Assembly (NCBI GenBank): GCA_025055115.1
Contig: JANWYJ010000076.1
Coordinates: forward strand, 1-35,794
DNA: 35,794 nt
Reading direction: 5' to 3'
Source: Gemmata sp.
GTDB lineage: Bacteria; Planctomycetota; Planctomycetia; Gemmatales; Gemmataceae
The notes beneath the pieces were generated by a model. The model saw only the letters and a list, made by a program, of their open reading frames with translations, was not told the DNA's origin and ran no database searches. Below are positions 732-35,684 of this stretch, in pieces. The position numbers and the translations under genes were made by a program. Position 1 is the stretch's first letter, and every line of letters starts with the position of its first letter.

Positions 732-1090
732 CTATTTCGGGGAAGCTCCGAGCCGTTACCGTGCGCCCTCTTGCCGCTGCCATCGGGTGTCGGTCCTTCG
801 TCGAAGAGGATTGATGGGAAGCTCCGAGCCGCTGCCGTGCGCCCCCCGGTGCCCCGCGCCCGCGGTGGCCGGGAAATACCGATTTTTCTGGCCGTTGTGT
901 TCGCAGTGCGAACCCCAAGCGCTCCGCGGCGGCGGCGGCCAGACGGACGGGAGTTTTCTACGGCCAATGGGTAACGATCGAACGCCGCGAACAAGGCTAC
1001 AGCCGCTGAGATGTCGCGCCGATGGGGCGGCAGGCGTCCAAAGGGCTGCCTGAGCGGGTGGGGAAGCCGCCTGTGGACCGAGGCGGCCGC
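732..1090. other. Convergent intergenic region without a convincing gene
   Basis: This 359-bp stretch lies between two convergent genes. Several frames are open here in both directions, as expected for very G+C-rich DNA, but none shows a recognisable domain or a start with a ribosome binding site. Apart from the 29-bp direct repeat nothing functional was identified, and no clear bidirectional terminator was found. Confidence 0.5.
740..844. repeat. Direct repeat, 29 bp, two copies
   Basis: Copies at 740-768 and 816-844 start with gggaagctccgagccg and differ at two positions, with 47 bp between them. They lie just after the stop codon of the acyltransferase-like gene. Confidence 0.8.
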
Positions 1091-2692
1091 TCAGTTGTAG
1101 CGGAGGGCTTCGATGGGATGGATATGGGCGGCCCGGCGGGCCGGATAGAGAGCGGCCAACGTGGTCAGCCCCACGGCAAAAATCATCGAACCAAGCCACA
1201 ACCACTGGGGGAAAATGAAAATTGTGGTGGTGAGCATTTCGCGTTCGCCCATCTGTTGATCCAAAAGCCCGCGGACCCAATCATCGGCCCACACGGCCAA
1301 GCCGCGAGCCAGCGCCAGCCCCACGACGGCCCCCATCAGGCCGATGATTGCCCCTTCGAGTAAAAACAAGGCGAGGATTTGTTGCCGGGTCGCCCCCACG
1401 GCTCGGAGAATGCCAATCTCTTTGGTTCGCTCCAAGACACTGGTGACCAAGGTGTTGGTGATGCCCACCGCCGCCACAAAAAGGGCGATGAAGGCGAACA
1501 GATTCAACCCCGCGGCGATGAGCGTCACCTCGCGCTTGGCGGCGGTGAACCATTTGGCCGCGGAGTAGGTCCGGAAGCCCATGTCTTCGATGGCTTGCAC
1601 CGTCGCCGGGAGGTCGCCCCCGGGTCGGAGGCGCACATCGGCCGACAGAAAGCCGCCGTCGGCGGCCCAGGGCAGTTGGCGGAAGAGGGTTTCGCCGCTG
1701 GGGGGCGGTAGAAAGGCGTGGGCGGTGGCCAGTTCCCAGGGGTCTAACGGGGTACGTTTCTTCCGCTCGGCGCGCGTCAGCAGGCGGACTACGCCACAGA
1801 TGCGGTAGACGCCGCTGGCGATCTTGCCCGAATCGGCGGCCCGTTCGCGGTCCGGGTCGGCGGGTTGTTCGAACAGTTTTTGCAGCTCGAGTTTCTCCGC
1901 AGCGCTCAGTTCGATGAGGTCGAGTTTGTCCCGTAGTAGAGACGTGAGTTTTTCCAGAACCTGCCATTGGCCGCGGGTCAGCTCTTCGGGTGGCTTGTGG
2001 CCCAATAGAGCGCGGGCGAGGGCGAATTGTTGGGTATTCTTGACGCCGCCGACATCGAGTTTCACGCTCAGGCCTAAAATTTTGTCCAGATCGGCATCAT
2101 CACGAAAGCCCAACTGATAGGCGACGAGTTCGGAAACGACCAGCTCGTCGGTCGCCTTCGCCTGGGGCAGTCGGCCGACAATAAGCCGTGGGGTCAGTTC
2201 GTCGAGCGGTCCGCTGATGGTGAAGGCGGGTACGGAAGTATCGGCGGTGTCGGCCCAGATGCGGCCATCGCCGCTGCGGTAGGTGCGGATTTCGGCCACA
2301 TCCGGCAGGGCCGCGATAGCCGCGCAGCGCTCGGGGGTGAGCATCTGGGGCGGCCGAACCAGGCGCTGGGCGGTATAGCGTTCGATGAGGGCTTCGCGGA
2401 GCCGAGCTTTGCGTTGTTCCGACATCTGGCCGAGCACCTGGATTTTCTCCTGCTCGGTTGCGGGAATGCGGCTTTCGTCGGGCAGGGGATCATCGACACG
2501 AACCACAATCCGCCAGAAATCGTCGCGACCTTGAAATTCCGTGTCGATGAAGGCGCGTAATCCCAACCCCAAAGCGCAACTGAACGCCAGCGCGCAGGTG
2601 CCGATGGTCACTCCCACCAACGTGAGGGTGGTGCGCATCTTCTGGCGCCACAACCCGTCCAAGGCCAGACGAACCAAGGCTAGCCGATTCAT
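1091..2692 (-). CDS. ABC transporter permease, MacB/FtsX type
   Basis: The 533-residue product has one N-terminal membrane span (about 20-42), a large extracytoplasmic region (about 45-385) and three C-terminal spans (about 390-412, 437-462 and 497-518). This is the MacB_PCD plus FtsX architecture. Diagnostic motifs are ERTKEIGILRAVGA on the cytoplasmic loop and PARRAAHIHPIEALRYN at the C terminus. Family members couple to a LolD/MacB-type ATPase and transmit ATP hydrolysis to the periplasmic domain, in lipoprotein release, macrolide or peptide efflux, or cell-wall control. No ATPase gene is adjacent in the window; it may lie elsewhere. The ATG at 2692 was chosen over an upstream start at 2797 because MNRLALVRLALDGLWRQKMRT is the normal beginning of the family. 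The extracytoplasmic region seems longer than in MacB and contains a charged, helix-rich stretch. The substrate is unknown. Confidence 0.85.
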   Translation of the reverse strand: MNRLALVRLALDGLWRQKMRTTLTLVGVTIGTCALAFSCALGLGLRAFIDTEFQGRDDFWRIVVRVDDPLPDESRIPATEQEKIQVLGQMSEQRKARLREALIERYTAQRLVRPPQMLTPERCAAIAALPDVAEIRTYRSGDGRIWADTADTSVPAFTISGPLDELTPRLIVGRLPQAKATDELVVSELVAYQLGFRDDADLDKILGLSVKLDVGGVKNTQQFALARALLGHKPPEELTRGQWQVLEKLTSLLRDKLDLIELSAAEKLELQKLFEQPADPDRERAADSGKIASGVYRICGVVRLLTRAERKKRTPLDPWELATAHAFLPPPSGETLFRQLPWAADGGFLSADVRLRPGGDLPATVQAIEDMGFRTYSAAKWFTAAKREVTLIAAGLNLFAFIALFVAAVGITNTLVTSVLERTKEIGILRAVGATRQQILALFLLEGAIIGLMGAVVGLALARGLAVWADDWVRGLLDQQMGEREMLTTTIFIFPQWLWLGSMIFAVGLTTLAALYPARRAAHIHPIEALRYN

Positions 2693-2771
2693 CGTGTGTG
2701 CCACCCCCGAGTGTACCCCGTCAACGAGCAACGGCGCGGTTGGGTTGGGAGGGAATCGCCCAAGCCCCCTG

Positions 2772-2798
2772 TTGGCAAGCCGGCGCGGTTTGTACAAT
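2772..2798 (+). promoter_or_regulatory. Possible sigma70-type promoter for rpsA
   Basis: TTGGCA at 2772-2777 and TACAAT at 2793-2798 resemble -35 and -10 boxes, but the 15-base spacer is short. The position would give a leader of about 145 bases containing the tandem repeat in front of rpsA. This is weak evidence. Confidence 0.3.
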
Positions 2799-2891
2799 TC
2801 TCGTATTCCCTCCCGAAGAAGCGGATCAGGGTGATGCGCCGGGGGGAAAGGTTGGTTGAACTATCCCGTCGCTCCTGATGGTCGGATCGTC

Positions 2892-2951
2892 GGGGCTGTA
2901 GTTTTTCCCACAAATTCACTTGGGGCTGTAGTTTCTCCCACAAATTCACTT
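2892..2951 (+). repeat. 30-bp tandem duplication abutting the rpsA start codon
   Basis: Two units, 2892-2921 and 2922-2951, start with ggggctgtagttt and end in cacaaattcactt. They differ at one base. The second unit runs directly into the ATG at 2952, replacing any recognisable Shine-Dalgarno sequence. Each copy may carry translation-control sequence of the S1 leader, but this is inference. Confidence 0.9.
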
Positions 2952-4770: not shown

Positions 4771-4800
4771 AACGCCGCCTCGGGCGGCGTTTCTTTTTCC
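4771..4800 (+). terminator. Intrinsic terminator of rpsA
   Basis: An 8-bp perfect stem (4772-4779 pairing with 4783-4790) has a 3-base loop and is followed by tttcttttt. It lies 11 bases after the rpsA stop codon. Confidence 0.9.
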
Positions 4801-4838
4801 CCCAAAGCCCAGACCTTTTTCCCCCCAAAGCCCAGACC
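4794..4838. repeat. 22/23-bp tandem duplication after the rpsA terminator
   Basis: Units 4794-4815 and 4816-4838 both read as a T-run, a C-run and then aaagcccagacc, differing by one C. The first unit begins inside the T-tract of the terminator, so the duplication copied part of that tract. The rest of the gap up to 5078 shows nothing recognisable. Confidence 0.85.
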
Positions 4839-6661: not shown

Positions 6662-7232
6662 CGGTTCTTCTGGGCGGCGGCCGCCCACCGCCTACCCATA
6701 TGGCTGCTCCCGTCTTACGCACACGTCCACTTACGCACACGTCCACCGCGCCTGAAGTTTGTGTTAAGAGGTAACGTGTTCTCCACCCAAACTGGCTGCT
6801 CCCGTCTTGCGCACACGTCCACTGCGCCTCTTGTCCGGTGGATTTTGTGACAAGGACGTTTGCAAAAAATGGACTTGACAAGCGACACTCTCTGACAATA
6901 CGCTCACAGCAAACTTCCCAAACCAACCTGCCTCGAAAGGCGGCGAGAAAGCCACCGACCGGCTCTTGTGCGGCCTGATTCGCATGGTGCGGCCATTTTT
7001 TCCATGCCGCAAAGGAAATTTGGCCCCAAAATTGCTAAAGTTTTGAGAAGTTAAAACCGAAAGCCGACTGCGGTCGTATTAATAACGGATTGTCGGCAAT
7101 GCCGCCATCCAACTTGACGAAAAAATGAAAAAAGACTGAAAGATCGGCTCGGCAATCTTGTACAATCCGAAGTAGGAGCGCCGCGGGAATCATCTCTGAC
7201 CTTCCCCCGGCACGATCCAGGAGGGACATCTC
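6662..7232. other. Long intergenic region before csrA
   Basis: No gene was recognised in these 571 bp. The left half contains direct repeats (separate entry). A TTGACA at 6875-6880 is followed about 17 bases later by a poor -10 (atacgc), and a TACAAT at 7161-7166, 67 bases before csrA, lacks a clear -35. The region just before csrA is A-rich. Promoters for csrA must lie here, but none can be assigned confidently. Confidence 0.5.
6701..6822. repeat. Direct repeats, 30 bp and internal 16 bp
   Basis: Copies at 6701-6730 and 6793-6822 start with tggctgctcccgtctt and differ at one base. The last 16 bases of the first copy are repeated again immediately, at 6731-6746. Confidence 0.85.
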
Positions 7233-7841: not shown

Positions 7842-8591
7842 ATGCGTGGTTTATTACTGGTCATGGTCTGTGCAATAATTGAACAGGCCCTGTTCGATTT
7901 TGGCACAATCTCTGAGTGCCACAGCGCGTCAGCACCGCCCACGACAGCGAAGGAAGCGTTCCAACCCTTCCAAGGATTGATCGGCTCTTGGAAGGGCCGC
8001 GGCACTCCGGAAGGCAACAAGGATGAACGCGCCGCCGGAGCGTGGGAAGAAAAAATCACTTGGGAATGGAAGTTTCAAGACGGCGACGCCTGGTTGCACA
8101 TCCGCTTCACCGGCAGTAAGCATTTCATGCATGGCGACCTCCGCTACACTCCCGCAGGCGATGCCAGCGAAGCCCGTTTCACCCTCACGCTCAGCTGCTC
8201 TGATCGTTCGACGGCTACCTTCGCCGGTACCTACGACGCCCAACTGCGCGTCTTAACGCTAACGCGTACCGATGGCCCAGCGACTGAAGAGCAGCGGTTG
8301 GTCTTTAGCCTGCTACATCCTAACCGCTACCTGTACCGGTTCGATGTTCGCCCAGCTCATACCAAGGTGGCCTTCACGAAAAAATACCAAGTCGGCGCGA
8401 CCAAAGAGGGCGAGGCGTTCGCCCAAGTGCCCAAAGGCCCTGAATGCATCGTCAGCGGCGGACTGGGTACCATCACGGTGGTTTATAAAGGCCAAACGTA
8501 TTACGTGTGCTGCTCCGGTTGCCGCGACGAGTTCCGCGCGCATCCCGAAAAGTACATCCGCGAGGCCGAAGCCAAAGCGCAGGGGAAATGA
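7842..8591 (+). CDS. Secreted protein with DUF1579-like N domain and C-terminal TRASH-type metal site
   Basis: The 249-residue product begins with a hydrophobic leader (about 1-31, somewhat irregular, with SECHSASA near its end). Residues about 40-185 form a beta-rich domain like DUF1579/lipocalin-type proteins (FQGLIGSWKGRGTPEGN). The C terminus (about 200-240) has C202, then 20 residues, C223, three residues, C227 within YYVCCSGCRDEFRAHPEKYI. This spacing is that of TRASH/YHS-type metal-binding domains, which bind copper, zinc or other soft metals in metal handling and sensing. GGAGAG upstream of the ATG at 7842 supports the start. It stands alone between csrA and a HEAT-repeat protein. The combination suggests an envelope metal-binding protein, but no function is known. 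Confidence 0.65.
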   Translation: MRGLLLVMVCAIIEQALFDFGTISECHSASAPPTTAKEAFQPFQGLIGSWKGRGTPEGNKDERAAGAWEEKITWEWKFQDGDAWLHIRFTGSKHFMHGDLRYTPAGDASEARFTLTLSCSDRSTATFAGTYDAQLRVLTLTRTDGPATEEQRLVFSLLHPNRYLYRFDVRPAHTKVAFTKKYQVGATKEGEAFAQVPKGPECIVSGGLGTITVVYKGQTYYVCCSGCRDEFRAHPEKYIREAEAKAQGK

Positions 8592-8650
8592 GCGGATCGC
8601 CCGCGTCTATTCCCGAAACCCAAGCCATAGCGCCAAGGAAATGAGCGGAT
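8584..8650. repeat. 14-bp direct repeat containing the stop codon of the upstream gene
   Basis: ggaaatgagcggat occurs at 8584-8597, where its TGA is the stop codon (8589-8591), and again at 8637-8650. The remaining gap up to the next start at 8862 shows only the ribosome binding site GAGGAG (8852-8857). Confidence 0.75.
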
Positions 8651-8861: not shown

Positions 8862-10352
8862 ATGAAGAAGCTATTCAGCTCTGTGGGGCTAGTCGGATGG
8901 GCCATCGGAGCCGCAATCGCGAACCCCCCTTCGCCCGAACCGATGGTGCCACTGCCGCAACTGGTGCAGCAACTCGGCGCCGACGATTTTCGCACGCGGG
9001 AGAAGGCCTCGGCCAGCCTGGAGAATGCCGGTCCGGCGGCGATTCCTCACTTGCAGAAGGCATTGCAAACCGACAATCCAGAAATACGCCTGCGGGCGGC
9101 AGCGATTCTGGCGAAACTCCAACGTACCGTCGATAGCACCGAACGTCTGGCCGCACGCCGCGTGGCTTTGAACTATCGGAATATGCCGCTGGGAGCTGCT
9201 CTCAACGACTTCCGCAGCCGCAGCGGCTTACCCATCCAGCTCGACGCCAGCCAACTGGCCGATCCCTTCCGTCAGATCACGCTGCAAACCGAGGAACTGC
9301 CCGTTTGGGAAGCCCTGGAAGCCTTCTGCACCGCCGCCGGCCTGCGCGAACGCTTCCACCACGAGATTGATTTTCCCAAAAAACCGACCGCCGACTCCCG
9401 CCGCTACATCTCCCTGCCGCTGCTGCCAACCGCCGAACGGGTACCGATTGTTCTTGGGGATGACGACGGCGCAGCGCCGCGAGCTATCGGCGACCGACGC
9501 ACCGCAGTGCGCGTGCTGGTGCTGCCGCCATCGTTCCCCGGCCATCGCACGATTTTGGGCCGCGGTGAAGTGGTGCTCTGCTTCGACATCATGCCCACCC
9601 CCGGCCTGAAGTGGCAAGACGGCGCGACGGTGAAAATCCGCCAAGTGATCGACGATGCCGCCCGTTATGGCAGTGGTGGCAGTCGCCGCGACCACCCCGC
9701 GCCGGCCGACGGTCAGGAGGTGGTGGCGTTCGCTGCGCCTGGCGGGGCGGTTTTCGGCCCGGGGGGGATACGGTTCGATCCCACCGGACGGCCCATCTAT
9801 CCCGCCACGATTCCCAATCCGCGCATCGTTCCTGTGTCGTTGAAGCTTGGTACTCCGCACGCCAAGAAACTCCGCCGGCTCGAAGGGACGGTGGTGGGCG
9901 AAATCGATGTGGCCCATCAGCCCCTCATCACCGTGAAAGACCCCATCCGCTATGTCGGCAACAGCTTCTATGGACCCGGCGAAGTGCAACTGAAGATTCG
10001 AGGCGTCAACGAGCACGGCGACCAAGCCAACCTCCAGTTGGAATTGGCCCACCCGACGCCGTGGATGTTGAACGCCCGCCGCGGCTGGAATCCCGGTGGC
10101 ATCTGGCCGGAATCCCCGCAATCCACTCAAACGATGCCCACCGTGCGGCTCTACGATGCCTCCGGCCGCGAGATCACCACCAAAATCAGCAACTACTTCG
10201 TCAGTACCTCGAACGACGACCAACTGTATGAGCATACGTTCTCACTGAGTTATGCGAAGACCACCCATCCCCCGGCTAAGCTCGTGGTGGTGGGTACGCG
10301 ACCCGTGGTGGTCGAAGTTCCGTTTGTCCTGGAGAACGTGCCGTTGCCGTAA
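8862..10352 (+). CDS. Secreted HEAT-repeat / STN-like domain protein
   Basis: The 496-residue product starts with MKKLFSSVGLVGWAIGAAIA, a signal peptide with cleavage near residue 20. Residues 30-88 form helical HEAT-like units (LGADDFRTREKASASLEN, then NPEIRLRAAAILAKLQ). Residues about 99-162 look like the short N domain of secretins and TonB receptors (STN): VALNYRNMPLGAALNDF, then LPVWEALEAFCTAAGL. The rest is beta-rich with no family I can name. Planctomycetes have many such exported HEAT/STN proteins of unknown role. GAGGAG four bases before the ATG at 8862 fixes the start; an upstream start at 8787 would give a poor leader. The stop codon TAA lies inside a 26-bp tandem repeat. Confidence 0.65.
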   Translation: MKKLFSSVGLVGWAIGAAIANPPSPEPMVPLPQLVQQLGADDFRTREKASASLENAGPAAIPHLQKALQTDNPEIRLRAAAILAKLQRTVDSTERLAARRVALNYRNMPLGAALNDFRSRSGLPIQLDASQLADPFRQITLQTEELPVWEALEAFCTAAGLRERFHHEIDFPKKPTADSRRYISLPLLPTAERVPIVLGDDDGAAPRAIGDRRTAVRVLVLPPSFPGHRTILGRGEVVLCFDIMPTPGLKWQDGATVKIRQVIDDAARYGSGGSRRDHPAPADGQEVVAFAAPGGAVFGPGGIRFDPTGRPIYPATIPNPRIVPVSLKLGTPHAKKLRRLEGTVVGEIDVAHQPLITVKDPIRYVGNSFYGPGEVQLKIRGVNEHGDQANLQLELAHPTPWMLNARRGWNPGGIWPESPQSTQTMPTVRLYDASGREITTKISNYFVSTSNDDQLYEHTFSLSYAKTTHPPAKLVVVGTRPVVVEVPFVLENVPLP

Positions 10353-10399
10353 GGGCCTGTCCGATTGGTGATGCGTAAGTGCCTGTCCGATTCGTGATG
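10348..10399. repeat. 26-bp tandem duplication containing the stop codon
   Basis: Units 10348-10373 and 10374-10399 start with cgtaag and share gcctgtccgatt; they differ at two positions. The TAA in the first unit (10350-10352) is the stop codon of the HEAT/STN gene, so the second unit carries a copied stop codon. Confidence 0.88.
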
Positions 10400-10501: not shown

Positions 10502-10722
10502 GTGCCCAGACGTGGTGACGTATCCGCAGGATTACTCGTGGGGATGTAGGGATTACTCGTGGTCACTTGTTGCCCCATCCTTCAGGCACCAAGCAGGTGC
10601 CCAGACGTGGGGATGTAGCCGCGGGATTGCTAGCCGCGGGCCTTGCACTGGTCAACCGACTGGTCATTGCGTTCATCTGTACACAGATGTAGCCGCGGGA
10701 TTGCTAGCCGCGGGCCTTGCAC
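10502..10722. repeat. Nested direct repeats, including an exact 37-bp pair
   Basis: An exact 37-bp unit starting gatgtagccgcgggattg occurs at 10612-10648 and 10686-10722. Each unit contains tagccgcggg twice. Diverged relatives precede it: tgcccagacgtgg at about 10503 and 10598, and ggattactcgtgg at 10529-10541 and 10550-10562. A hairpin with 7-bp arms (10674-10680 with 10683-10689) overlaps the left edge of the second 37-bp unit. Confidence 0.88.
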
Positions 10723-10795
10723 CGCGGCGCGACGTTCGGACGCAGTTTCTCACAATCTCTATTCTCTCACAATCTCCATGAAAATAGCCCCATCG

Positions 10796-10900
10796 ATCAA
10801 AAAGTTGAAAAAATTCTGCACTCTTGGTCAGTATCTGGACAATTTCGCGTGCTAGCTGGGGTAGCCGTCAATCAAAAAGTTGAAAAAATTCTGCACTCTT
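10796..10900. repeat. Exact 30-bp A-rich direct repeat upstream of the second csrA
   Basis: Copies at 10796-10825 and 10871-10900 start with atcaaaaagttgaaaaaatt and end in ctgcactctt, 75 bp apart start to start. Their A-rich composition contrasts with the G+C-rich surroundings, so a regulatory role is possible, but no known operator matches. Confidence 0.88.
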
Positions 10901-11137
10901 TGGCAGAATGCTCCTTGACGGCGCAACTTACCCGGTTTTACAGTGGGGAATGATGAGAAGCGGCGCAGGGTGTGCGGGGATGGCACACCTCCGCGGACAT
11001 CGGCCGTAGCCGCCGACCTCCGCGGGACCATGGGGGTATTGCGGCCCGCCGGAAGGGATTCCGCGGCCCGTGTTGTGGAGCCGGTATTCCAGATGACCGA
11101 CTCAGGACCAGACTGACTCCTCAAAAAATAGACACCA

Positions 11138-11356: not shown

Positions 11357-11771
11357 AGGCCTCCGTGGGCCGGCCTGATGCTCCGCTCTGAGGCGACAAG
11401 CCTGGAGCCGGTTTCCCCCCTTATTCCTTCAACGGTTGCTAATCCTTCCGCTGTGGCAGCAGGGGATCGAGTTGAAGATCGGTTCTCCGTTGTTGCCGAT
11501 CTGGAACAGCGTTCGAATCATCGTGATGGTGGTGAATGACAATATCGTGATGGTGGTGAGGGACAATCGCCCCCCGCACAAGCCATCGTCGCTGTCTGGA
11601 ATCGTGTTCTCAGCATCGTGGTGGTGGTCAATTGAGACTGTGCATCCACTCTCGCGCTGCGTGTGTGTTTGAAAATCGTTCGAATGATCGTGGTGGTGGT
11701 GAGAGCCGGAGTTGCCGATCGGTCCTTTTCCCTCAGCTCTTCCACCAAGGCGTCTGATCTTCTGGCCAACC
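11357..11771. other. 415-bp intergenic region with a degenerate repeat block
   Basis: Frames on both strands are open here only because of the repeated tggtggtg sequence. The minus-strand frame gives clusters of His and Thr-Ile repeats and is not a credible gene. No promoter was identified for the CoA-binding protein gene that follows. Confidence 0.5.
11520..11710. repeat. Four diverged 24-bp units
   Basis: Two tandem units (11520-11543 and 11544-11567) start atcgtgatggtggtga and end in gacaat. Two diverged units with atcgtggtggtggt lie at 11615-11638 and 11687-11710. The first and fourth are both preceded by gttcgaat, and gttgccgatc occurs on both sides of the block, suggesting an older, larger duplication. 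Confidence 0.75.
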
Positions 11772-23481: not shown

Positions 23482-23516
23482 GGCCATCTCCGGCGCGGGC
23501 TTGGGCTGCGGACCCG

Positions 23517-24191: not shown

Positions 24192-24279
24192 ACCCTCCGC
24201 CTCCCTGCGTCAGCGCCTGCTGGAGGCTTACCCCGGGGGGGAAAATCCGTCAAGCCAAAGCCGCATGCTGCCCGGGCCA

Positions 24280-24990
24280 CTACACTTCACGGGCACCGGG
24301 GGCGACTGTCCCGACGTTGGAGGTCGATGGGCTGCGCTCACCGAGCATCGGCCTTTCTCCGCCGTCGTGGTCTGGCGTGGGCCGCGGCGGTTCACTCCGG
24401 CGGACCACCAGTTGGAGAATTTCAGCCGGCGATACAGACGCGGAAGCGACCCGCGCGGCCCGGGTCGCCGCGGCAGCCGTGGGCGGCAGCGCCGGCGGTT
24501 CCGGCCCCGGCCCGGGCAATTCCAGCAGTGTTTTCACCCCGTGGCCGTCGGTCCCGATGAGCAAGCGGCGTGGACCGGCTTGCACCAGATGAATCACCCC
24601 CGGACCAACGGCGACAGAAGCGATGGTCTCCAGCGGGGTTGAGGCACTGCCCCGAGCCGTCTTCGCCTGCAGCCACCGGGCGACCAGAACACACAAACCA
24701 CCGACCACGACCAACCCCAACCCCAACTTCACCAGAGAGGCACCGATTCCGGGAGCGGTCGGCGCGTCCGGGGGCACGGGTCGGGACGAATCCCGCGTGG
24801 CTGGGGCGTCCGGGGGCACGGTTCGAGCCGAATCCGCAACGGGCGACCGTGGCCGCGATGACGCCGGCGACCAACGCGTACCCGCAGCGAGCATCGGCAG
24901 GGCAAAGCCGACCGCAACCACCACCAGCCCGGCGGCGATCCACGCGGGTAAGAGCTTCCGTGGTGAGGGTGTTGATCGTGGGTGTGCCAT
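24280..24990 (-). CDS. fliO: Flagellar export protein FliO
   Basis: FliO assists assembly of the FliPQR gate. The 236-residue product has a first hydrophobic span at about 14-35, a Pro/Ala-rich linker with a repeated VPPDAP phrase, a second span at about 85-110 (LVKLGLGLVVVGGLCVLVARW), and the FliO core. The core phrase is PLETIASVAVGPGVIHLVQA, then RRLLIGTDGHGVKTLLELP. The C-terminal tail is low complexity. ATG at 24990 has GGAGGG seven bases upstream. Duplicated units upstream add one or more in-frame start codons (25041 and beyond), so an N-terminal extension of one or two 17-residue units is possible. Its position before fliP fits. Confidence 0.88.
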   Translation of the reverse strand: MAHPRSTPSPRKLLPAWIAAGLVVVAVGFALPMLAAGTRWSPASSRPRSPVADSARTVPPDAPATRDSSRPVPPDAPTAPGIGASLVKLGLGLVVVGGLCVLVARWLQAKTARGSASTPLETIASVAVGPGVIHLVQAGPRRLLIGTDGHGVKTLLELPGPGPEPPALPPTAAAATRAARVASASVSPAEILQLVVRRSEPPRPTPDHDGGERPMLGERSPSTSNVGTVAPGAREV

Positions 24991-25096
24991 GAGGTCCCTC
25001 CGTTGGCAAGTTCCGGATGACGCCGATCGTGGGTGTGCCATGAGGTCCCTGCGTCGGCAAGTTCCGGATGACGCCGATCGTGGGTGACGATGATCA
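24974..25096 (-). repeat. 51-bp tandem repeat carrying the fliO start codon and ribosome binding site
   Basis: Units 24974-25024 and 25025-25075 start gatcgtgggtgtgccatgag and differ at two positions; a third partial copy begins at 25076. Each full unit carries, on the minus strand, a purine-rich ribosome binding site and an ATG (24990 and 25041). Fifty-one is divisible by three, so all copies stay in frame with fliO. The rest of the gap up to 25251 shows nothing recognisable. Confidence 0.92.
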
Positions 25097-25251
25097 CAAG
25101 GTTTTCGAGGCCGTTGTGGCGGCGACACACCGGCGTTTCCCCGCTGCGACGCGCTGGGGCGATGGGCGATTCGGGGCGGAGAGTGCCGCGCCTGTGCGCG
25201 TGGCGGCACATCGGCTTGGGGAGGGCCGCGGCGAACGGGTGGGGGAGATCG

Positions 25252-25959
25252 TTAGGGGGTTTTCGCGGCCCCTGGCGCAGTTGGAGTCGTGCGGAGGCGG
25301 AGCATGCGGTCGATCAATTGCGATCCGAGCGACGGTTCGAGGCTTTCCAGAATGCGGGCGGAGTTGCGTTCTTTCATCTTCACGAGAATTTTGGCCGCGG
25401 TGTCCATGCGGCCTTTCTCGGCCATGTCCTTGAGAATCGGCGCGGCCGCTTCCGGTGCCATGGCCTCGTACATGGTGGCGAGTTTGGTGATGTTGGCATC
25501 TTCGAGGGCGTTGTATTCGACCGTGCGGTTGTTGAGGTCTTTGAGCATAGCGTCGAGTTTGCTGGTCTCGGCGGGGAGGTTTTTCAACTCGGCCATCACC
25601 TGTTGCAACAGGTAGTCGTTGCGTTCGCGTTGTGTTTGCAGGTCGCGCAGGACTAATTCGATCTGGGCGGTGCGACGTTCGAGCCGAGCTTCGGTATCGC
25701 GCAGGCGCTTGAGATCGGCTTCGCTGAGAGGCGAGGCCGGCGGTTCTTTGGTCGCGGGCGGGGGTTTGGGTTCGGTGATTTCTTTCGGCTTGCCGTTTTT
25801 TTCGAGAGCGGGTTTCTCTTTGTCCGGGGGGGGCGTTTTCTCCTTGTCTTTCTCCGCGGTTTCCTGTTGTTGCTTGGCTTGTTGGAGCCACAGCGATAGC
25901 GCGGCGGAGACGGAGAACAAAAACATCGCCAATAGTCCGAGAATCAGGAAGTTTTTCAT
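25252..25959 (-). CDS. MotE-like flagellar protein (MgtE_N-type C domain)
   Basis: The 235-residue product has one N-terminal membrane anchor (about 5-26) and a Lys/Pro/Glu-rich linker (about 30-78). A coiled coil covers about 80-150 (LKRLRDTEARLERRTAQIEL). The C domain resembles MgtE_N/MotE: VEYNALEDANITKLATMYEAM, then PEAAAPILKDM and ARILESLEPSLGSQLIDRML. Such proteins, called MotE, YlxF or FlbB, lie next to fliJ in several phyla. They act as periplasmic or motor-associated scaffolds for stator or MotC folding. Here the gene lies between fliJ and fliO, supporting that role. The start has no clear ribosome binding site beyond a weak purine run. Confidence 0.75.
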   Translation of the reverse strand: MKNFLILGLLAMFLFSVSAALSLWLQQAKQQQETAEKDKEKTPPPDKEKPALEKNGKPKEITEPKPPPATKEPPASPLSEADLKRLRDTEARLERRTAQIELVLRDLQTQRERNDYLLQQVMAELKNLPAETSKLDAMLKDLNNRTVEYNALEDANITKLATMYEAMAPEAAAPILKDMAEKGRMDTAAKILVKMKERNSARILESLEPSLGSQLIDRMLRLRTTPTAPGAAKTP

Positions 25960-26051
25960 TGTCGGACTCAGGGCCTGGGGTAGCCACGAACAACGGCACG
26001 GGTTCGTGTCGCGTTGGTGTGACGTATTGTCGCGCGTCTTTGCGGCGGTGT

Positions 26052-26540
26052 CTAGGCCACTGCGCCGTGGGGGCGGCGGAGGGCGCTGGTGTCGTCGTCA
26101 GGGCGACGGTGCCAGAGGCGGAGGCTGACTTCGTCGAGCTGCTGCTGGTCGGCCTTGGCGGCTTCGCGTCGCCATTGTTCCCAGTGTTGGCGGCGGAGAG
26201 TGGCGATGGCTTCGACCTCGGTGGCCAGTTGAGCGCGTTCCTGGGCCGCGGTCAGCAGGCGTTGCTCGGCGCTGGTTAATTCTTGTTCGGCCGTACGTAG
26301 GGCGTGGCCGAGGCGTTCGGCCATGTCAGCGGCACAAACCCATTGTTGGGGTGTCATGGTGCGGCCGATGGCCTGCGTGAAGCTCTCGGCGATGCGGGCC
26401 AGTTGGGTGCGGATATGCTCCACGGCCGCTCGGGCCTGTTCGACCGCTTGGACAGCGCGCTGTTGTTCCAATTCGGCCAGCCGCTCCAGTTGTTGTTTGA
26501 CGCGCAGCAGGCGTTCGAGTGAAAATTCAAACCGTTTCAC
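26052..26540 (-). CDS. fliJ: Flagellar export chaperone FliJ
   Basis: FliJ is the coiled-coil stalk of the export ATPase complex and recycles chaperones. The 162-residue product begins KRFEFSLERLLRVKQQLERL, the standard FliJ opening, and is nearly all heptad-like helix rich in Glu, Gln, Ala and Arg. The GTG start at 26540 is supported by GGGAGG six bases upstream. It follows fliI across a 193-base gap that shows no gene or clear signal. Confidence 0.9.
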   Translation of the reverse strand: MKRFEFSLERLLRVKQQLERLAELEQQRAVQAVEQARAAVEHIRTQLARIAESFTQAIGRTMTPQQWVCAADMAERLGHALRTAEQELTSAEQRLLTAAQERAQLATEVEAIATLRRQHWEQWRREAAKADQQQLDEVSLRLWHRRPDDDTSALRRPHGAVA

Positions 26541-26733
26541 AGTGGCCTCCCACGAACGTTGCGCCGCTTATGGCGAAGCGCAATAGTGGTGTCAAGCCAA
26601 AGTGCCCGCGGCGACGGGGCAGGTGGGGCAGTCCGGCCAAGCGGCGGCGGATCGGGACATGCCGCGGGGCGTTGACAGCCGGAGTTACCGGCAAGCGGCG
26701 CAGCGTGTCTCAGTTCGAGCCGTGGTTGTGGGT

Positions 26734-28050
26734 TTAGAATTTCCATTCTTCGGCCAGTTGGAAGAGTCCGGCGCGGGTTTGTTCGAAGCGGGAACGTTCG
26801 CCGATGTCTTGCTTGAGGAACTTCTCGACGCGCGGCATCAGTTCAATCGCTTTATCAATGGCGGCATTGGAACCGCGGACGTAAGCCCCGATGCGGAGCA
26901 GGTCCTGAACTTCGGCGTAGGTCGCCAGGATGGCGCGCAATTTGCGTGCCGCCTGCGCGTGCGCTTTATCCACCACGTCGGTCGCGACCCGACTGATACT
27001 GCGGGCGACATCAATCGCCGGATAGAAACCGCGTTCGGCCAGTTTGCGGTCAAGGACAATGTGGCCATCGACCAGACCACGCACGTAATCGGCAATCGGT
27101 TCATCCAGGTCGCCGCCATCGACCAGAACGGTCAACAGCGCCGTGATACCGCCGACCGCGGCGTTGCCGAGCCGTTCCACCGTATTGGCCAGAGTGGTGA
27201 AGACACTGGGGGTGTAACCGCGGCTGCTGGGGGGTTCGCCGCGCAGCAGCCCCAGTTCGCGTTGGGCCAAAGCCAGCCGTGTGAGGCTATCGATGACGAA
27301 CAAGACATTGCCACCACGCTCGCGGAAGAAATCGGCGATCGCAATAGCGGCTTGCGCAGCCCGAACCCGCATCAGCGGCGTTTGTTCGCACGTCGCGACG
27401 ACGACAATCGAGCGTTGCCTGCCTTCTTCGCCCAGAACATCGTCAAGGAAGGGTTTGACTTCCCGGCCGCGCTCACCAATCAGAGCAATGACGTTGACAT
27501 CGGCTTGCGAACCTTTGGCAATCTCGCCCAGAAGTGTACTTTTGCCCACTCCAGAGCCAGCGAAAATACCGATGCGCTGGCCGCGACCACAGGTCAACAC
27601 CGCGTCGATGGCGCGAATGCCGGTGACAAACGGTTGGCGGATGGGCTGCCGCTCGAGGGCCGGAGGGGCCGCGCCATGCACCGACTTCATCGAACAGCCG
27701 GTGATGGGGCCGCGGTGATCGAGGGGGCGGCCCAAACCGTCGATGACGCGCCCCAACAGGTTGCCGCCCACGGGAATGGTGGCGCCTTTGCCTTTGCGCA
27801 TCACGGGCATGCCGGGCCGCAGATCATCGGCCGGGTCGAACGGCAGCATGTAGGCGATGTCCCGTTCAAAACCGATCACTTCCGCCAATACCGGTTCCCC
27901 GCGCTGGGGGATGATGTAGCAGTGGTCGCCCACGGCGGCAGGAATCGCCGAGGTCATGATCCCGGTGACGCTGCGCAGCCGCCCGCCGATACTATAAAGT
28001 GGCGTTTGCGTAATACTGCGACTCATCGCCGACAAATCCAAACCGAGCAT
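26734..28050 (-). CDS. fliI: Flagellum-specific export ATPase FliI
   Basis: FliI is the ATPase of the flagellar type III export apparatus, related to the F1 beta subunit. The 438-residue product has Walker A GSGVGKST at 165-172, ALIGERGREVKPFL, a Walker B strand ending NVLFVIDSLTRLALAQRE, and GEPPSSRGYTPSVF. All are typical. Its ATG overlaps the fliH stop codon by one base (TAATG), showing translational coupling. The length is normal. Confidence 0.97.
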   Translation of the reverse strand: MLGLDLSAMSRSITQTPLYSIGGRLRSVTGIMTSAIPAAVGDHCYIIPQRGEPVLAEVIGFERDIAYMLPFDPADDLRPGMPVMRKGKGATIPVGGNLLGRVIDGLGRPLDHRGPITGCSMKSVHGAAPPALERQPIRQPFVTGIRAIDAVLTCGRGQRIGIFAGSGVGKSTLLGEIAKGSQADVNVIALIGERGREVKPFLDDVLGEEGRQRSIVVVATCEQTPLMRVRAAQAAIAIADFFRERGGNVLFVIDSLTRLALAQRELGLLRGEPPSSRGYTPSVFTTLANTVERLGNAAVGGITALLTVLVDGGDLDEPIADYVRGLVDGHIVLDRKLAERGFYPAIDVARSISRVATDVVDKAHAQAARKLRAILATYAEVQDLLRIGAYVRGSNAAIDKAIELMPRVEKFLKQDIGERSRFEQTRAGLFQLAEEWKF

Positions 28051-28721
28051 TACTTCAAACTCCGTAACAGTTCCTCACGAATGTCTTCAAGTTCACGGGT
28101 GATGTCGGAAAGCAGCATCGACTCCCGGCCCTCAACGTGGCAGGCACCGCGGGCCAGGGTAGCATCGGTTACGATCCGCGGCGCCTCCGGGCCGGTCAGC
28201 CAGGGTTCGTCGCCGGACGGGCGGAGGCGGCTTTGCAGAAGCTCCCAATCGGCCGGGTTCAAACGCACCACCACGGGCACATCGTCGGTCATTTGTGCGA
28301 TCATGTCGCGGATTTTGGCGTCGATGGGGAAGTCGTTGGCGGTGATGCGTTCATGCAACAAGCGCGTGGCCATGGTGGTGGCCAGTTCGATGGCTGCGCG
28401 TTGCCATTGTTCGATGCGGTTATGTTGTTCGGCGCGCAGTTGAGCGATCGCGGTCTGCAACTGTTGCAACACTGTGGCGATGGCGTGGCGCTCAGCCTCC
28501 AGTTGTTCAAGCCGTTCAGCCGAAGCCTCGGTTTGGCTGGCGGGGGGGGGGGGAGTCGCGGCCGGACTTGGTGGGGCAACCGAGGCGGGGACGCGGGGCG
28601 GAGGAGCTTCGGCCGCGGCGGGTGTTTCCGGCAACAGCGATTGCGGCCGAACACAACGAACCTGCCGCAGCGGTGCATGAAACCGAAGGCGTGTGACGAC
28701 TGGGGCGACGGACATACCCAT
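28050..28721 (-). CDS. fliH: Flagellar assembly protein FliH
   Basis: FliH is the peripheral stalk that regulates FliI and tethers it to the C ring. The 223-residue product has a Pro-rich N terminus (about 25-65), a long helical coiled coil (about 68-120) and a globular C domain (VVVRLNPADWELLQSRL, then VTDATLARGACHVEGRESMLLSD), matching the FliH/SctL pattern. ATG at 28721 has GGGGAAG about seven bases upstream; a second ATG at 28715 is equally plausible. A 730-base gap separates it from fliG, so a separate promoter for fliH onward is possible. Confidence 0.88.
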   Translation of the reverse strand: MGMSVAPVVTRLRFHAPLRQVRCVRPQSLLPETPAAAEAPPPRVPASVAPPSPAATPPPPASQTEASAERLEQLEAERHAIATVLQQLQTAIAQLRAEQHNRIEQWQRAAIELATTMATRLLHERITANDFPIDAKIRDMIAQMTDDVPVVVRLNPADWELLQSRLRPSGDEPWLTGPEAPRIVTDATLARGACHVEGRESMLLSDITRELEDIREELLRSLK

Positions 28722-29450
28722 ACAGGCTTCCCCGCGGGGACGACACGCCGTGGCGTTTCCACCGCCACGACCCCTCCCACCCATGATGGCTCTTAGCCGC
28801 GGGGCGTGAAAATCGCAAGAGCCACTGGGTTGAAATGGGAGGCACCGAAAGATGGCTTAAATTCAGGCCGCAGGCGAGCTACAGCACGGGAGTGTCGGAA
28901 TTTTTTGCAAGATTGTTCCGCGATTTGGCAGACGGCGGCGATTTTTTTACTCCGGCCTGAATACGCCGCAGACCCTCAGGGCCGCAGGCCGGCCTCCCCC
29001 GCGGGGGTATCGGTGGCCGGTGGCCGGATGGCTCGAGGCCAGCCTCACGACGAGAGCCGCCGCGCCGCGGATGGTGTTGCCGACGATTGTTGCGGCGAAT
29101 TCTTGGCTCATCCCATACTGGATCGACCGGTGCCGCCTCATGGTTTTCTCATCTGCGGCTGTGGCTCAGCGGAGTGTCTGGCGCGCTGGGGCGTCGCGGT
29201 GTCTCAGTTTCATGGTTTTCTCATCTGCGGCGGTGGCTGAGCGGCCTAGGATCTTCGGTTATTGCTCAGTGGCAGAAAATCTCCGGCTATGACTCAGTGG
29301 CATAGGATCTGCGGTTGTGGCTCAGCGACCTGAAAGCTCTGGCGGTTGTCGGTGGATGCCAGCCGTTGGTATTTGCCAGGTCTGTATTTGCGGCTGAGCG
29401 GCATAAAATCTCGGGCGGTTGTCAGGCTTTCGTGGCCGTCTCATGGTTTT
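28722..29450. other. 730-bp non-coding gap inside the flagellar operon
   Basis: No frame of this gap has a credible protein. The right part (29138-29450) is filled with diverged repeats (separate entry). The left part has an A/T-rich island (about 28895-28960) in G+C-rich surroundings, which could hold a promoter for fliH on the minus strand, but no box could be assigned. Confidence 0.6.
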
Positions 29451-29460
29451 CTAATCTTCG
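29138..29460. repeat. Repeat family related to the fliG 3' end
   Basis: The sequence tcatggttttct occurs at 29138, 29210 and 29441; the copies at 29138-29172 and 29210-29244 are 35 bp long and differ at two positions. The third copy (29441-29460) overlaps the fliG stop codon (29451-29453) and its last codons. Between them lie about five diverged units of 20-28 bp with the pattern tctgcgg, gtggctcag and a short spacer. Confidence 0.75.
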
Positions 29461-30395
29461 GGTGTCACTTCTCCATCTTCTTCGGCTTTGCGAACAGCGG
29501 CGATGACTTTGGCTTGGGCTTCGCGGATGCGGGCGGCGGAAACAGTACCCAACAGTTCGCTTTCGTCGCGCAGTACGTCGCGGGAGCGGCTCGACATGTT
29601 GCGGGTCACTTTGTCCATGATTTCGGCCGTAACTCCTTTGAGGGCCGTAGCTAACGTCTTGACATCGAGTTTGCCCAACAGCACTTGCATTTGTCGATCG
29701 GGAATGCGCAACAGGTCTTCGATGCGGTAGAGCTTTTCGAGGATTTTGCTGGCTAGAACCGGGTCGGCGGCTTCGATCTGTTTAATGACCGGCAGGCGTT
29801 CGGCGCGGGGTAAAGCCCGGATCATGTCGGCCAACTTTTCGATCAGTTCGTCGGGGTTGGGTTCTTTGGGCAACTCGGTGAGGCGGCGGGCTTTGGCGGC
29901 GACCGCGTGGAGCAGTTGGTTGATCATGTGCGGGCTGCGGGTGGTGGGTTTGGCCATCCGCAGGGTGACTTCAGCACGGAATTCCAGCGGCATGCGTTGC
30001 AGCACTTTGCCGGCTGTCGCCGGATCGAGCGTAGCCAGAACGATGGCCACAGTTCCGGGTTGTTCGCCCTCGAGGGCACGTGCGACGATGTCGGGGGCGA
30101 GGGTCCGCAGTTCGTCGGCTGGGGGCGGAGGCGGGGGCGGAGGCTCGGGAGCGGGCGGCGGGGCTGGTGCCGCGGCCGGCGCCGGGCGTTCGACAATCCG
30201 TTGCAGGTCGAAGAAGTGGGCGAGGGCGGCGTCGATTTCGGGACCCGGGGGGGAGGCGGCCGACGGTTCGGCCAGACGTGCCCGCAGGCGTGCCGCCTCC
30301 GCGGGGCCGAGGCGAGCTAAGATCGTCTCGACGATCTCCGCCGGCATCAAGCGCAGCAGTAATACCGCAACATCAACACTCGGGGCTTCGGCCAT
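29451..30395 (-). CDS. fliG: Flagellar motor switch protein FliG, divergent
   Basis: FliG binds the MS ring and, through its C domain, transmits torque from the stator. The 314-residue product has a short N domain (about 1-70: VDVAVLLLRLMPAEIVETIL), then an unusual Pro-rich linker (about 70-105). A middle domain follows (EGEQPGTVAIVLATLDPATAG) and then a C domain (VLASKILEKLYRIEDLLRI, MDKVTRNMSSRSRDVLRDE). The EHPQ FliM-contact motif of typical FliG reads EQPG here. The C-terminal charged helix is present. ATG at 30395 has GGAG five bases upstream. It follows fliF by 18 bases. Confidence 0.9.
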   Translation of the reverse strand: MAEAPSVDVAVLLLRLMPAEIVETILARLGPAEAARLRARLAEPSAASPPGPEIDAALAHFFDLQRIVERPAPAAAPAPPPAPEPPPPPPPPADELRTLAPDIVARALEGEQPGTVAIVLATLDPATAGKVLQRMPLEFRAEVTLRMAKPTTRSPHMINQLLHAVAAKARRLTELPKEPNPDELIEKLADMIRALPRAERLPVIKQIEAADPVLASKILEKLYRIEDLLRIPDRQMQVLLGKLDVKTLATALKGVTAEIMDKVTRNMSSRSRDVLRDESELLGTVSAARIREAQAKVIAAVRKAEEDGEVTPED

Positions 30396-30413
30396 CCGCA
30401 CTCCGCATTCCGG

Positions 30414-31928
30414 TTAGCTGGCCGGGGTTCCCAACAGCGATCGGAAGATCGCGGCCACCCGCTCGGGATCGGTGCGGGCCATGTCGATCAACCGATTCAG
30501 GTCATTGCGCCGGCGCTCTTCTGCTGTCGGTGGCGTAACCGCTTGTGGCGCAGGAGCTTCGGGCAGACGCCGCCGCCGCAATACCAACAACGCCACAATC
30601 AGCACCACAAGGAAACTGGCGATCGCCAAACTGAGGTTGCGCGCCAGTTCCACATACAGCTGAATTTGTTGCAGTTGCGTCAGGGTCTCGTCCGGCTCGG
30701 GGGGGCCGAGTGGACCGGTCAGCTTGACATTGGTGAGTTTAACCTCATCGCGTCCCGGACGGAAGCCGACTGCCTGCTTGATGATGTCTTCGGCATCCGT
30801 AGCACTGATGACCGCTTGGCCTTCGGTCGAACTCAGATCGACCAGCGCCGCGATGGTGAGGCGAGTCACGGCGGCCATGCGGTCTTCCAATTCCCGGACC
30901 GTTTCGGAGAGGGCGTAGTCGGTTTGAACGGTTTCTTCCTGTGAGGTGGTGGTGCCAGTGCCGGCGCTGGCGGTGGTTCCCCCGGCGCGGGTGAGGTTGC
31001 TCGTGGCCCCCGCGACGCCGCGCGCGGCCACGCCGGTGGTTTTCGACGACATTTGCCGTTCGCTTTTGGCCACTCGGCCATCGGGCGCGTAACTCCGCTG
31101 CATCTCCTTGACGCGTTGAAAGTTAATGTCGGCACTGACTTGCACAACAGCCCGCCCCGGGCCGAGATGCTGAGTCAGCATCTGTTGCGCTTTGTTGGCC
31201 AGGTATTCCTCCAGTTCGCGGCGGTACTCCAACTGCGGGGTAGGCAGCTGGTCACGCTCCGCCGCGTTGGGATCGGAGAGCAAGCGCCCGTTCGAATCGA
31301 CCACCGTGACATTTTCCGGCTTCAGCCCTTCCACACTGCGCGCCACCAGCGCCACGATGCTGGCCGCGGTGGCGCGGTTCATCACCGCTCCGGGTTTCAA
31401 TTTAATGACCACACTGGCCGTTGGCGGCTTTTCACCCCGAACAAAGTAGGTTTGCTCAGGTTTGGCGATCAGCACCCGGGCCGACTGAACCGGCTCCAAT
31501 TGCATGATGGAGCGGGCCAGTTCCGCTTGCAGCGCGCGTTGATAGTTGACGGATTGCACGAAGGGAGTCGTCATCAGCGAGGTTTCGTCGAACAGTTCGT
31601 AGCCTTTGCCACCCCGGGTGGGCAGTCCGGCACTGGCCAAGGCCACCCGGGCTTCGGCCAGCCGCTGCTGAGGAACCAGAACCGCGCTGCCATCGGGCGA
31701 TAGCTTCACCGGAATATTCTGGGCCGTCAGGGTCGTGCGCATCGCCCCGGCTTCATCTGGTGCCAAATCGCGATAGACCGCCACATAGGTACTGCTCGAC
31801 AAATACGCCACCACGCCCAAAGCGACCAGCAACGCCACGCCGGCGGCGACCACCAACACCCGGCGGGCCAGCCCCAGCCCGGCCCAATACTCCCGCGCTT
31901 GGGTCCACAGACGACGCAGCGTTTCCAT
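30414..31928 (-). CDS. fliF: Flagellar MS-ring protein FliF
   Basis: FliF builds the MS ring and houses the export gate. The 504-residue product has a first membrane span at about 23-42 and the YscJ/FliF ring-building motifs (LPTRGGKGYELFDETSLMTT, then YQRALQAELARSIMQLEPVQSAR). A second part has the phrase EYLANKAQQMLTQHLGPGRA. A C-terminal span lies near 430-450 (LSLAIASFLVVLIVALLVL), followed by a cytoplasmic tail that should bind FliG. ATG at 31928 is supported by GAGGA about seven bases upstream; the extended frame to 31973 is not needed. It is slightly shorter than the Escherichia coli protein. Confidence 0.95.
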   Translation of the reverse strand: METLRRLWTQAREYWAGLGLARRVLVVAAGVALLVALGVVAYLSSSTYVAVYRDLAPDEAGAMRTTLTAQNIPVKLSPDGSAVLVPQQRLAEARVALASAGLPTRGGKGYELFDETSLMTTPFVQSVNYQRALQAELARSIMQLEPVQSARVLIAKPEQTYFVRGEKPPTASVVIKLKPGAVMNRATAASIVALVARSVEGLKPENVTVVDSNGRLLSDPNAAERDQLPTPQLEYRRELEEYLANKAQQMLTQHLGPGRAVVQVSADINFQRVKEMQRSYAPDGRVAKSERQMSSKTTGVAARGVAGATSNLTRAGGTTASAGTGTTTSQEETVQTDYALSETVRELEDRMAAVTRLTIAALVDLSSTEGQAVISATDAEDIIKQAVGFRPGRDEVKLTNVKLTGPLGPPEPDETLTQLQQIQLYVELARNLSLAIASFLVVLIVALLVLRRRRLPEAPAPQAVTPPTAEERRRNDLNRLIDMARTDPERVAAIFRSLLGTPAS

Positions 31929-32041
31929 GATTCGATCCTCTGTCGTCGCTTCTGCGGCATCGGCCAGCAGCACCGGCTCTCCATGGCGGCGGCCGGTTCA
32001 TTCACCCCGACCATGCCGCGGCCATCGCCACCACCGCGCCA

Positions 32042-35090: not shown

Positions 35091-35136
35091 TGTCGTTACT
35101 CGGCCATAAGGATTGTCGTTACTCGGCCATAAGGAT
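35091..35136. repeat. Exact 23-bp tandem duplication upstream of the FlhB-like gene
   Basis: Units 35091-35113 and 35114-35136 start tgtcgttactcggccataag and are identical. They end 37 bases before the start codon at 35174. The rest of the 253-base gap after the fliK-like gene shows nothing recognisable. Confidence 0.92.
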
Positions 35137-35173
35137 TGTGATTCGATGGGTTCGGAGGCGCGGAGGGGGCGTG

Positions 35174-35443
35174 ATGGCGGAGAATGCTGCTCGTAGGCGG
35201 GCCGTGGCATTGCGTTACGATCCAAGCCGCGACGCCGCCCCGGTGGTGGTCGCCAAAGGCCAGGGGCGTTTGGCCGAGCAGATTCTAGCGCTGGCCCGCA
35301 AAAATGCTGTTCCCGTGCGGGAAGATGCCAATTTGGTTCAGGTGCTCAGCCGGTTGAAGATCGATCAGGAAATTCCTCCGGAAGTGTACCGCGCCGTCGC
35401 AGCCATTCTGGCGTTCTTGTACCGCGTCAACCGGCCAGCGTAG
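35174..35443 (+). CDS. FlhB C-terminal homologue (FlhX/YlqH-like)
   Basis: The 89-residue product matches the FlhB cytoplasmic domain after the autocleavage site: RRAVALRYDPSRDAAPVVVA, then KGQGRLAEQILALARKNAVP, VREDANLVQVL and IPPEVYRAVAAILAFLYRVN. The NPTH cleavage motif and all membrane spans are absent. Similar short proteins next to fliK genes (FlhX, YlqH) resemble the cleaved FlhB fragment and may replace or assist it in the export gate. The ATG at 35174 has GGAGGG about seven bases upstream; an earlier start at 35138 would overlap the repeat. The stop codon is followed directly by a 15-bp repeat array. Confidence 0.85.
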   Translation: MAENAARRRAVALRYDPSRDAAPVVVAKGQGRLAEQILALARKNAVPVREDANLVQVLSRLKIDQEIPPEVYRAVAAILAFLYRVNRPA

Positions 35444-35444
35444 G

Positions 35445-35534
35445 CGAATCGGAAGGGGGCGAATCGGGAGGGGGCGAATCGGGCGTAGGCGAATCGGAAG
35501 GGGGCGAATCGGAAGGGGGCGAATCGGGAGGGGG
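35445..35534. repeat. Six 15-bp tandem units directly after a stop codon
   Basis: Six consecutive 15-mers of the type cgaatcggaaggggg run in perfect register. The third unit (35475-35489) ends in gcgtagg, the same seven bases that hold the stop codon at 35438-35444, so the stop region itself was copied into the array. Confidence 0.92.
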
Positions 35535-35580
35535 TGAGGCGGAACTTCGGCCCCCAACCACCGCGAGCAGAGAAGCGATG

Positions 35581-35684
35581 CCTCCCACGCAGCGATGGCT
35601 GACAACCAGGTATCACGTCCCCAACAGGCTGCCCTCCCACACAGCGATGGCCAACAACCAGGTATCACGTCCCCAGCAAGCCGC
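35581..35684. repeat. 52-bp tandem duplication at the start of the last gene
   Basis: Units 35581-35632 and 35633-35684 start cctcccac and share cagcgatggc and caaccaggtatcacgtcccc; they differ at about seven positions. Both contain an ATG; the second one (35648) opens the partial coding sequence at the window edge. Confidence 0.88.

Follow-up and report, generated by a model that had tools for sequence, protein, structure and literature searches.

The 35,794-nucleotide contig JANWYJ010000076.1 of the planctomycete Gemmata sp. (assembly GCA_025055115.1), hereafter the window, belongs as contig 3 to a draft genome of 4.93 Mb and 100 contigs, and the gaps between its genes are crowded with short direct duplications (Table 1). 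The S1 gene here is most similar (97%) to the one of an uncultured Gemmata. These duplications fall into two classes: tandem duplications of a short unit, and loci, termed here A-B-A loci, in which two arms of about 37 bp (A) enclose an insert (B) that is unrelated to them and about 36 bp long. A preliminary description of the window had pointed out 15 of these positions, and a close direct duplication is indeed present at every one, although the one near 8584 is weak (14 bp exact, 79% over 42 bp). That description treated the duplications as one class; it missed the bimodal spacing reported below and, with it, the A-B-A loci. We read the A-B-A loci together with the tandem duplications as off-target integrations by the CRISPR (clustered regularly interspaced short palindromic repeats) integrase Cas1-Cas2 on one hand and as products of staggered breaks on the other, a joint reading to which we assign a probability of about 0.8.

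The gap duplications are real and genome-wide. Genes and gaps were delimited by a purpose-written codon-usage gene caller. In the window, 12 of the 24 gaps of at least 60 bp hold an exact repeat of at least 14 bp, and 16 repeat loci lie in 7.3 kb of gaps as against two in 28.5 kb of genes, in agreement with the earlier statement that coding DNA is nearly free of them. The comparison with shuffled gaps that had been proposed as a check produced no repeat locus after five dinucleotide shuffles of each gap. Counting exact direct repeats of at least 14 bp lying at most 150 bp apart over the first 320 kb gave 1.40 per kb of gap versus 0.07 per kb of gene, with none in shuffled gaps and 0.004 per kb in shuffled genes. 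For repeats of at least 18 bp the gap-to-gene contrast is about 25-fold. The genome-wide sample was then set at 1,059,400 bp in 57 stretches with 757 called genes, about one-fifth of the genome, its contigs being picked by number. Its 189 kb of gaps contain 304 exact pairs, its 870 kb of genes 52. A sister genome (G017), the nearest of the genomes compared, with about 84% DNA identity to the window's genome over the probe, holds 10 exact pairs in 69 kb of gaps and 13 in genes across the 460,000 bp sampled. The density that looked exceptional in the preliminary description is indeed exceptional. Duplication spacing is bimodal, with 139 gap pairs at 15-31 bp and 94 gap pairs at 65-80 bp, the latter range holding two pairs in genes.

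A scan allowing mismatches, with start-to-start spacing of 64-82 bp and an arm identity floor of 80%, returned 116 A-B-A gap loci, or 115 when the true CRISPR array of the genome is excluded, and one further locus mostly inside a gene; scaled by length, the genome total comes to about 540. Their spacing is mostly 69-77 bp. Arm length has its mode at 36-37 bp (38 of 116 loci), matching the 37-bp repeat of the array, and 10 of the 23 exact arm runs of at least 30 bp found in gaps at spacing 65-80 are 37 bp long, one of them being the true array. Arm identity is spread continuously from the search floor to 100%, with identical arms at 21 of the 116 loci, which suggests that the process has been running for a long time. 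At L098:13078-13195 the arm of an A-B-A locus is exact over 45 bp and B is 28 bp long, the two still adding up to 73. At four loci there is a possible third copy, making them candidate proto-arrays.

Of the 58 loci with arms of 35-39 bp, the array among them, 52 have a B of 34-39 bp, a length that is partly constrained by the spacing bounds of the scan; overall B ranges from 31 to 42 bp. When the non-array loci with arms of this length are ranked by age, 15 of the 16 youngest have a B with no second match in the genome, one marginal second match (E 0.72) being left uncounted, and local template switching is rejected because B has no second copy elsewhere in the genome. Within the sample, matches with E below 1e-5 were found for two of 104 B segments and for at least one of 104 random 36-mers from gaps. 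The G+C fraction of B is 0.546, lower than the 0.583 of gap DNA. In the window, B of the locus at 10612 (10649-10685, 37 bp) has no second genome match, and B of the locus at 17336 has a 94% match at G000:C12:52012-52045; the second arm of this latter locus covers the 3′ end of a minus-strand gene (17411-18064). The locus at 29138 has degenerate copies (71%) at 29294 and 29441. The gap around it (28635-29450), 816 bp long here and 318 bp in the sister, carries degenerate repeats with lengths near 28 and 35 bp.

The arm boundaries also resemble those of the array. Positions -2 and -1 outside the arms favour C (chi-square 31 and 13), as in the leader end GGCC of the array. Of 44 A-B-A loci, 18 have CC next to one end or both, compared with 16% for gap positions drawn at random (p=7.5e-5), a moderate preference. 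Target choice directed by hairpins is rejected, since inverted repeats in A are not enriched (mean 3.80 versus 3.74 in random gap DNA).

The array in question lies on contig C95, 257 bp beyond a cas1 gene that follows cas2. Its repeat measures 37 bp and its first spacer 36 bp; the second spacer, probably 32 bp, is interrupted by the contig end, and with up to three mismatches the repeat is found nowhere else in the genome. When Cas1-Cas2 adds a spacer to an array, the repeat-length target becomes duplicated around the inserted spacer. Both proteins score above the Pfam cut-offs (Cas1, PF01867, 6.8e-66; Cas2, PF09827, 8.9e-13), and in an alignment of four related Cas1 proteins E155, H220 and D232 are invariant, which we take to be the catalytic Glu-His-Asp. 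There is no room for a reverse transcriptase (RT) gene between cas2, which ends at 58144, and cas1, and the RT of the genome G031 had no match in the own genome in a search that carried no positive control. A second Cas1, fused to Cas4, is encoded on contig C86. A Cas6 match and genes of the repeat-associated mysterious protein (RAMP) family lie on contigs other than C95; the latter, at C49 and C80, led us to reject the idea of an effector-free system. The motif TGTTCCACGTGGAACGTCGGCGAA stands just upstream of cas2, at about 17740-17760 of stretch L124 (C95 near 57.75 kb).

The tandem class has a different signature. With a smallest scanned unit of 11 bp, 197 tandem gap loci were found, the unit being 11-35 bp in 191 and most often 15-23 bp. 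The repeated stretch extends beyond one unit by no base in 91 of the 197, by one in 39 and by two in 17; among loci with overlaps of up to 8 bases these make fractions of 0.55, 0.24 and 0.10, where chance gives 0.55, 0.28 and 0.11; the tandem duplications are without microhomology. Outside the tandem, C is found at position -4 in 44 of 90 left ends and 48 of 90 right ends against a background of 29% (p=6e-5 and 1e-6), which is an enrichment and not a universal rule, and a weaker C occurs at -7. A-B-A ends have no such excess at -4 (23 of 88). A Cas1 origin of the tandems is rejected, as their ends show C at -4 and have CC on a side in 17 of 90. Gene ends are spanned by 24 of the 116 A-B-A loci and 33 of the 197 tandem loci. 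Of seven units in the window said to include a start or stop codon, those at 8584, 10348, 17408, 29441 and 35438 do cover a called gene end and those at 24974 and 35581 do not. A 15-bp tandem duplication also lies within a called gene of the window (15401-15434).

The two processes overlap at individual loci. An inner tandem copy of at least 13 bp is present in 14 of 19 pairs spaced 85-100 bp versus one of 116 at 64-82 bp (p=4e-14), and 12 of the 19 revert to a spacing of 70-81 bp once the inner copy is subtracted. The preliminary description correctly attributed the duplications to a mutational process rather than to a dispersed element, with the correction that there are two such processes.

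Comparison with related genomes bears on where the extra DNA arose. At 10790-10909 the sister differs by 75 bp, having a single A and no B. The 13 orthologous gaps that carry duplications are a median of 130 bp longer than in the sister (mean 382 versus 190 bp), whereas the 46 without duplications are a median of 6 bp shorter (mean 101 versus 119 bp). The two groups differ with p=5e-7, or p=2e-5 for sister gaps of at least 100 bp, and we conclude that DNA was gained here at the duplication sites. The branch of the C95 Cas1 (best identity 48-53%) occurs in three of 94 other genomes of the family, G079, G036 and G031, where it is accompanied by cas2, RT and a Cas6 or Cas6-like gene, putative in G036. 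G079, from another genus, has eight A-B-A loci in 57.8 kb of gaps, with arms of 32-39 bp; its cas6 and cas2-RT-cas1 genes lie at L173:5907-10080 (G079:C254), and no CRISPR array was found beside them, so that it is apparently an orphan adaptation module. No A-B-A locus occurs in 77 kb of gaps from G002, G008, G063, G084 and G086, five genomes in which Cas1 matches at 35% at best or not at all. At spacings up to 45 bp, the own genome has 0.67 pairs per kb of gap; the figure is 0.04 for the sister, 0.34 for G079 (first 94 kb) and 0-0.09 for these five genomes. In the G031 array, 33 spacers have lengths of 34-43 bp, comparable to B. The sister has a CRISPR array of its own at L147:1-700 (G017:C5), whose repeat, about 36 bp long, is a different one.

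Table 1. Coordinates of the duplications in the window and of the other features discussed (spacing is from start to start; window positions unless a contig or stretch is named)
Feature	Position	Details
A-B-A locus, older	740-844	arms 740-768 and 816-844 (27/29), B 769-815, spacing 76
Tandem duplication, unit 30	2892-2951	
Tandem duplication, unit 23	4793-4838	
A-B-A locus	6701-6823	arms 6701-6731 and 6793-6823, spacing 92
16-bp tandem duplication inside A-B-A locus 6701-6823	6714-6746	92-16=76
Diverged direct duplication	8556-8650	over stop codon of gene 7842-8591, spacing 53
Tandem duplication, unit 26	10348-10399	includes TAA stop of gene 8862-10352
A-B-A-like pair	10502-10631	spacing 95; unit of about 20 bp recurs within B by eye (95-20=75)
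A-B-A locus, young	10612-10722	arms 10612-10648 and 10686-10722 identical (37/37)
A-B-A locus with clean empty site in sister	10790-10909	sister: A once, B absent
Tandem duplication, unit 24	11520-11567	absent from the preliminary description
Tandem duplication, unit 24	17142-17188	
A-B-A locus, young	17336-17443	arms identical (37/37), B 17373-17406 (34 bp)
A-B-A locus	18155-18268	spacing 74, arms 35-40 bp (32/35 in one alignment)
Tandem duplication, unit 51	24974-25086	
A-B-A locus	29138-29244	arms 29138-29172 and 29210-29244 (33/35), B 37 bp
Tandem duplication, unit 23	35091-35139	
15-bp array (GGCGAATCGG core), 45-bp superunit	35438-35544	across stop of gene 35204-35443
Tandem duplication, unit 52 (88%)	35581-35684	
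cas2	C95:57812-58144	
cas1	C95:58291-59265	open frame starts earlier
GTTCCACGTGGAACGTC element, own genome	L127:18197, L090:15913, L089:12230, L104:7431, L102:11530, L135:9329	
GTTCCACGTGGAACGTC element, sister	L152:13783, L149:18151	

Two observations stand apart from the duplications. The window contains the flagellar and export genes flhA, flhB and fliF (19124-31973), which are ordinary. A dispersed element with the core GTTCCACGTGGAACGTC and a tail near GAATACTCA is found in both the genome and its sister, and its core resembles a parS site.

The A-B-A loci are best read as hundreds of off-target spacer integrations by Cas1-Cas2. The enzyme would attack ordinary chromosomal DNA once on each strand, at points some 37 bp from one another, and insert a prespacer of about 36 bp, and gap filling would then duplicate the target of about 37 bp, with the same chemistry and ruler as at the own CRISPR array; selection would remove the integrations that hit genes. 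The maker is likely the cas2-cas1 pair on C95, a relative of the RT-associated CRISPR modules minus the intervening RT gene.

Several observations weigh against this reading. In the alignment to a related genome that had been suggested at the outset, only one of ten orthologous alignments, that at 10790-10909, presents a clean empty site, the other nine not being judgeable and some of them being too diverged. Taken together, all 59 orthologous adjacent gaps show no overall shift in length (p=0.67), and longer gaps offer more room for duplications. G031 and G036 have the Cas1 branch, RT and arrays, yet outside the arrays G031 holds no pair in 22 kb of gaps and G036 about two in 20 kb, while the sister, without this branch, has six A-B-A pairs besides its own array, several of them weak; the branch is therefore associated with the loci but neither necessary nor sufficient for them. 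Boundary matches to GCC and to CC|G are weaker (p=0.006 and 0.03), and two exact arms are 45 bp, outside the expected length. No protospacer match was found in phages or plasmids for 19 B segments and the array spacer, nor in viral contigs for six B segments and the array spacer (seven viral scans); here the true array spacer thus fared no better than B. In a further search of the 94 other family genomes, 23 B segments and the array spacer were unmatched, although this search was weak, scoring at most five candidates per genome and recovering five of 24 in the own genome. On the side of the tandem duplications, the topoisomerase step set out below depends on a single base, and the zero-overlap peak is absent from nine exact tandems of G079.

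For the tandem class, a published report gives C at -4 of the cleavage site as the preference of topoisomerase I (PMC7587558), and since this is the base enriched at the tandem ends, we propose paired cleavage with fill-in. Topoisomerase I would make two cleavages, on opposite strands, in melted DNA, the 3′ ends of the staggered break would be extended, and rejoining would leave a tandem copy. Since no Ku match was found in any of the 19 genomes of the genus that were searched, the rejoining would perhaps be done by the bound topoisomerase. We infer this topoisomerase step throughout and hold it tentatively, at somewhat less than even odds. Having C four bases upstream of each strand's cut agrees with the published preference of topoisomerase I, but one preferred base is little information and the C at -7 is left unexplained by that preference, and it is about a coin toss whether another nickase or the incisions of excision repair set this boundary instead.

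The preliminary description had named replication slippage, end-joining or repair as the process at work. End-joining in which staggered breaks capture filler DNA could in principle make both classes, and the homology-free tandem copies are consistent with fill-in of staggered ends. With Ku unmatched in the 19 genus genomes searched, however, its classical form is disfavoured, and filler capture would fix neither A near 37 bp and B near 36 bp nor CC at the ends, which leaves it quite unlikely as a common origin. Slippage or unequal crossover, with selection confining the products to gaps, has the appeal of a simple and universal mechanism, and arrays such as that at 35438-35544 look like later slippage expansions. 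As the source of all duplications it is nevertheless very unlikely: slippage has no source for a B found nowhere else in the genome, it does not account for the arm peak at 37 bp, the end overlap of the tandems is only at chance level, and the sister and other members of the genus carry few duplications. A transposase or small mobile element that duplicates 37 bp of its target would explain the transposition-like geometry of A-B-A, but shared ends were not seen by eye among the 45 youngest B segments printed, B varies in length, and the own CRISPR array has exactly this geometry, so that we hold such an element to be highly unlikely. Assembly error, conceivable in a genome of 100 contigs, can be all but dismissed, as the contrast between gaps and genes, the boundary preferences, the continuous divergence of the arms down to 80% and the greater length of gaps at duplication sites relative to the sister would not follow from it.

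Read jointly, the duplications would make a CRISPR integrase a long-term, chromosome-wide mutator that has left some 500 mostly foreign snippets within 37-bp duplications, next to a blunt-tandem footprint of topoisomerase I; we consider this full picture slightly better than an even bet. If it is true, the integrations lengthen gaps, edit gene ends, archive past invaders outside arrays and perhaps seed proto-arrays, and CRISPR adaptation carries a genome-wide mutational cost in nature. The inserts would record invaders that array-based searches overlook, and hundreds of natural events would be at hand from which to learn the specificity of the integrase and the birth of new arrays. It would also become testable what holds Cas1-Cas2 on target, and whether the loss of a partner, perhaps RT, frees it. 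If topoisomerase I makes the tandems, a bacterial indel signature is legible in genomes.

Among known systems, the nearest to the proposed tandem process is the de novo duplications linked to topoisomerase II in yeast (Stantial 2020, as cited in PMC9698242). There, as hypothesised here, topoisomerase cleavage leads to small duplications; the yeast case involves a type II enzyme and depends on non-homologous end joining, whereas here the boundary is type IA-like, the units are mostly 11-35 bp and no Ku was found. Ectopic spacer acquisition in Streptococcus thermophilus (PMC7999890, PMC5338259) likewise puts a spacer at an unusual place, but that place is within the CRISPR array, and the A-B-A loci lie elsewhere in the chromosome. 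Non-canonical spacer integration into the chromosome (Nivala, Shipman and Church 2018) is cited in PMC11788318 and PMC9456107, and in the titles and abstract openings of the literature no natural genome-wide off-target integration was recognised.

The RT-CRISPR modules of G031, G036 and G079 (cas6, cas2-RT-cas1) are closest in the enzyme itself, the own Cas1 being 48-53% identical to theirs, and the array repeats of G031 and G036 are 37-38 bp long and share the ending GGCCATTGAAAC with the own repeat. Unlike in these modules, the own cas2 and cas1 have no RT between them, and the Cas6 match and RAMP genes are on other contigs. Closest in outcome is the work of Nivala, Shipman and Church, who in 2018 reportedly described off-target spacer integration by Cas1-Cas2 in E. 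coli under overexpression, with a few natural cases, in which the insert lies between two copies of a repeat-length target and the sites are similar to the native locus. The resemblance covers spacers in chromosomal DNA outside arrays, the repeat-length duplication and the native-like sites, and the differences are that the present case is a natural genome with about one A-B-A locus per 9 kb, arms 80-100% identical and a process apparently long-running. Off-target integration is thus known from E. coli, and a natural load of this size appears to be new.

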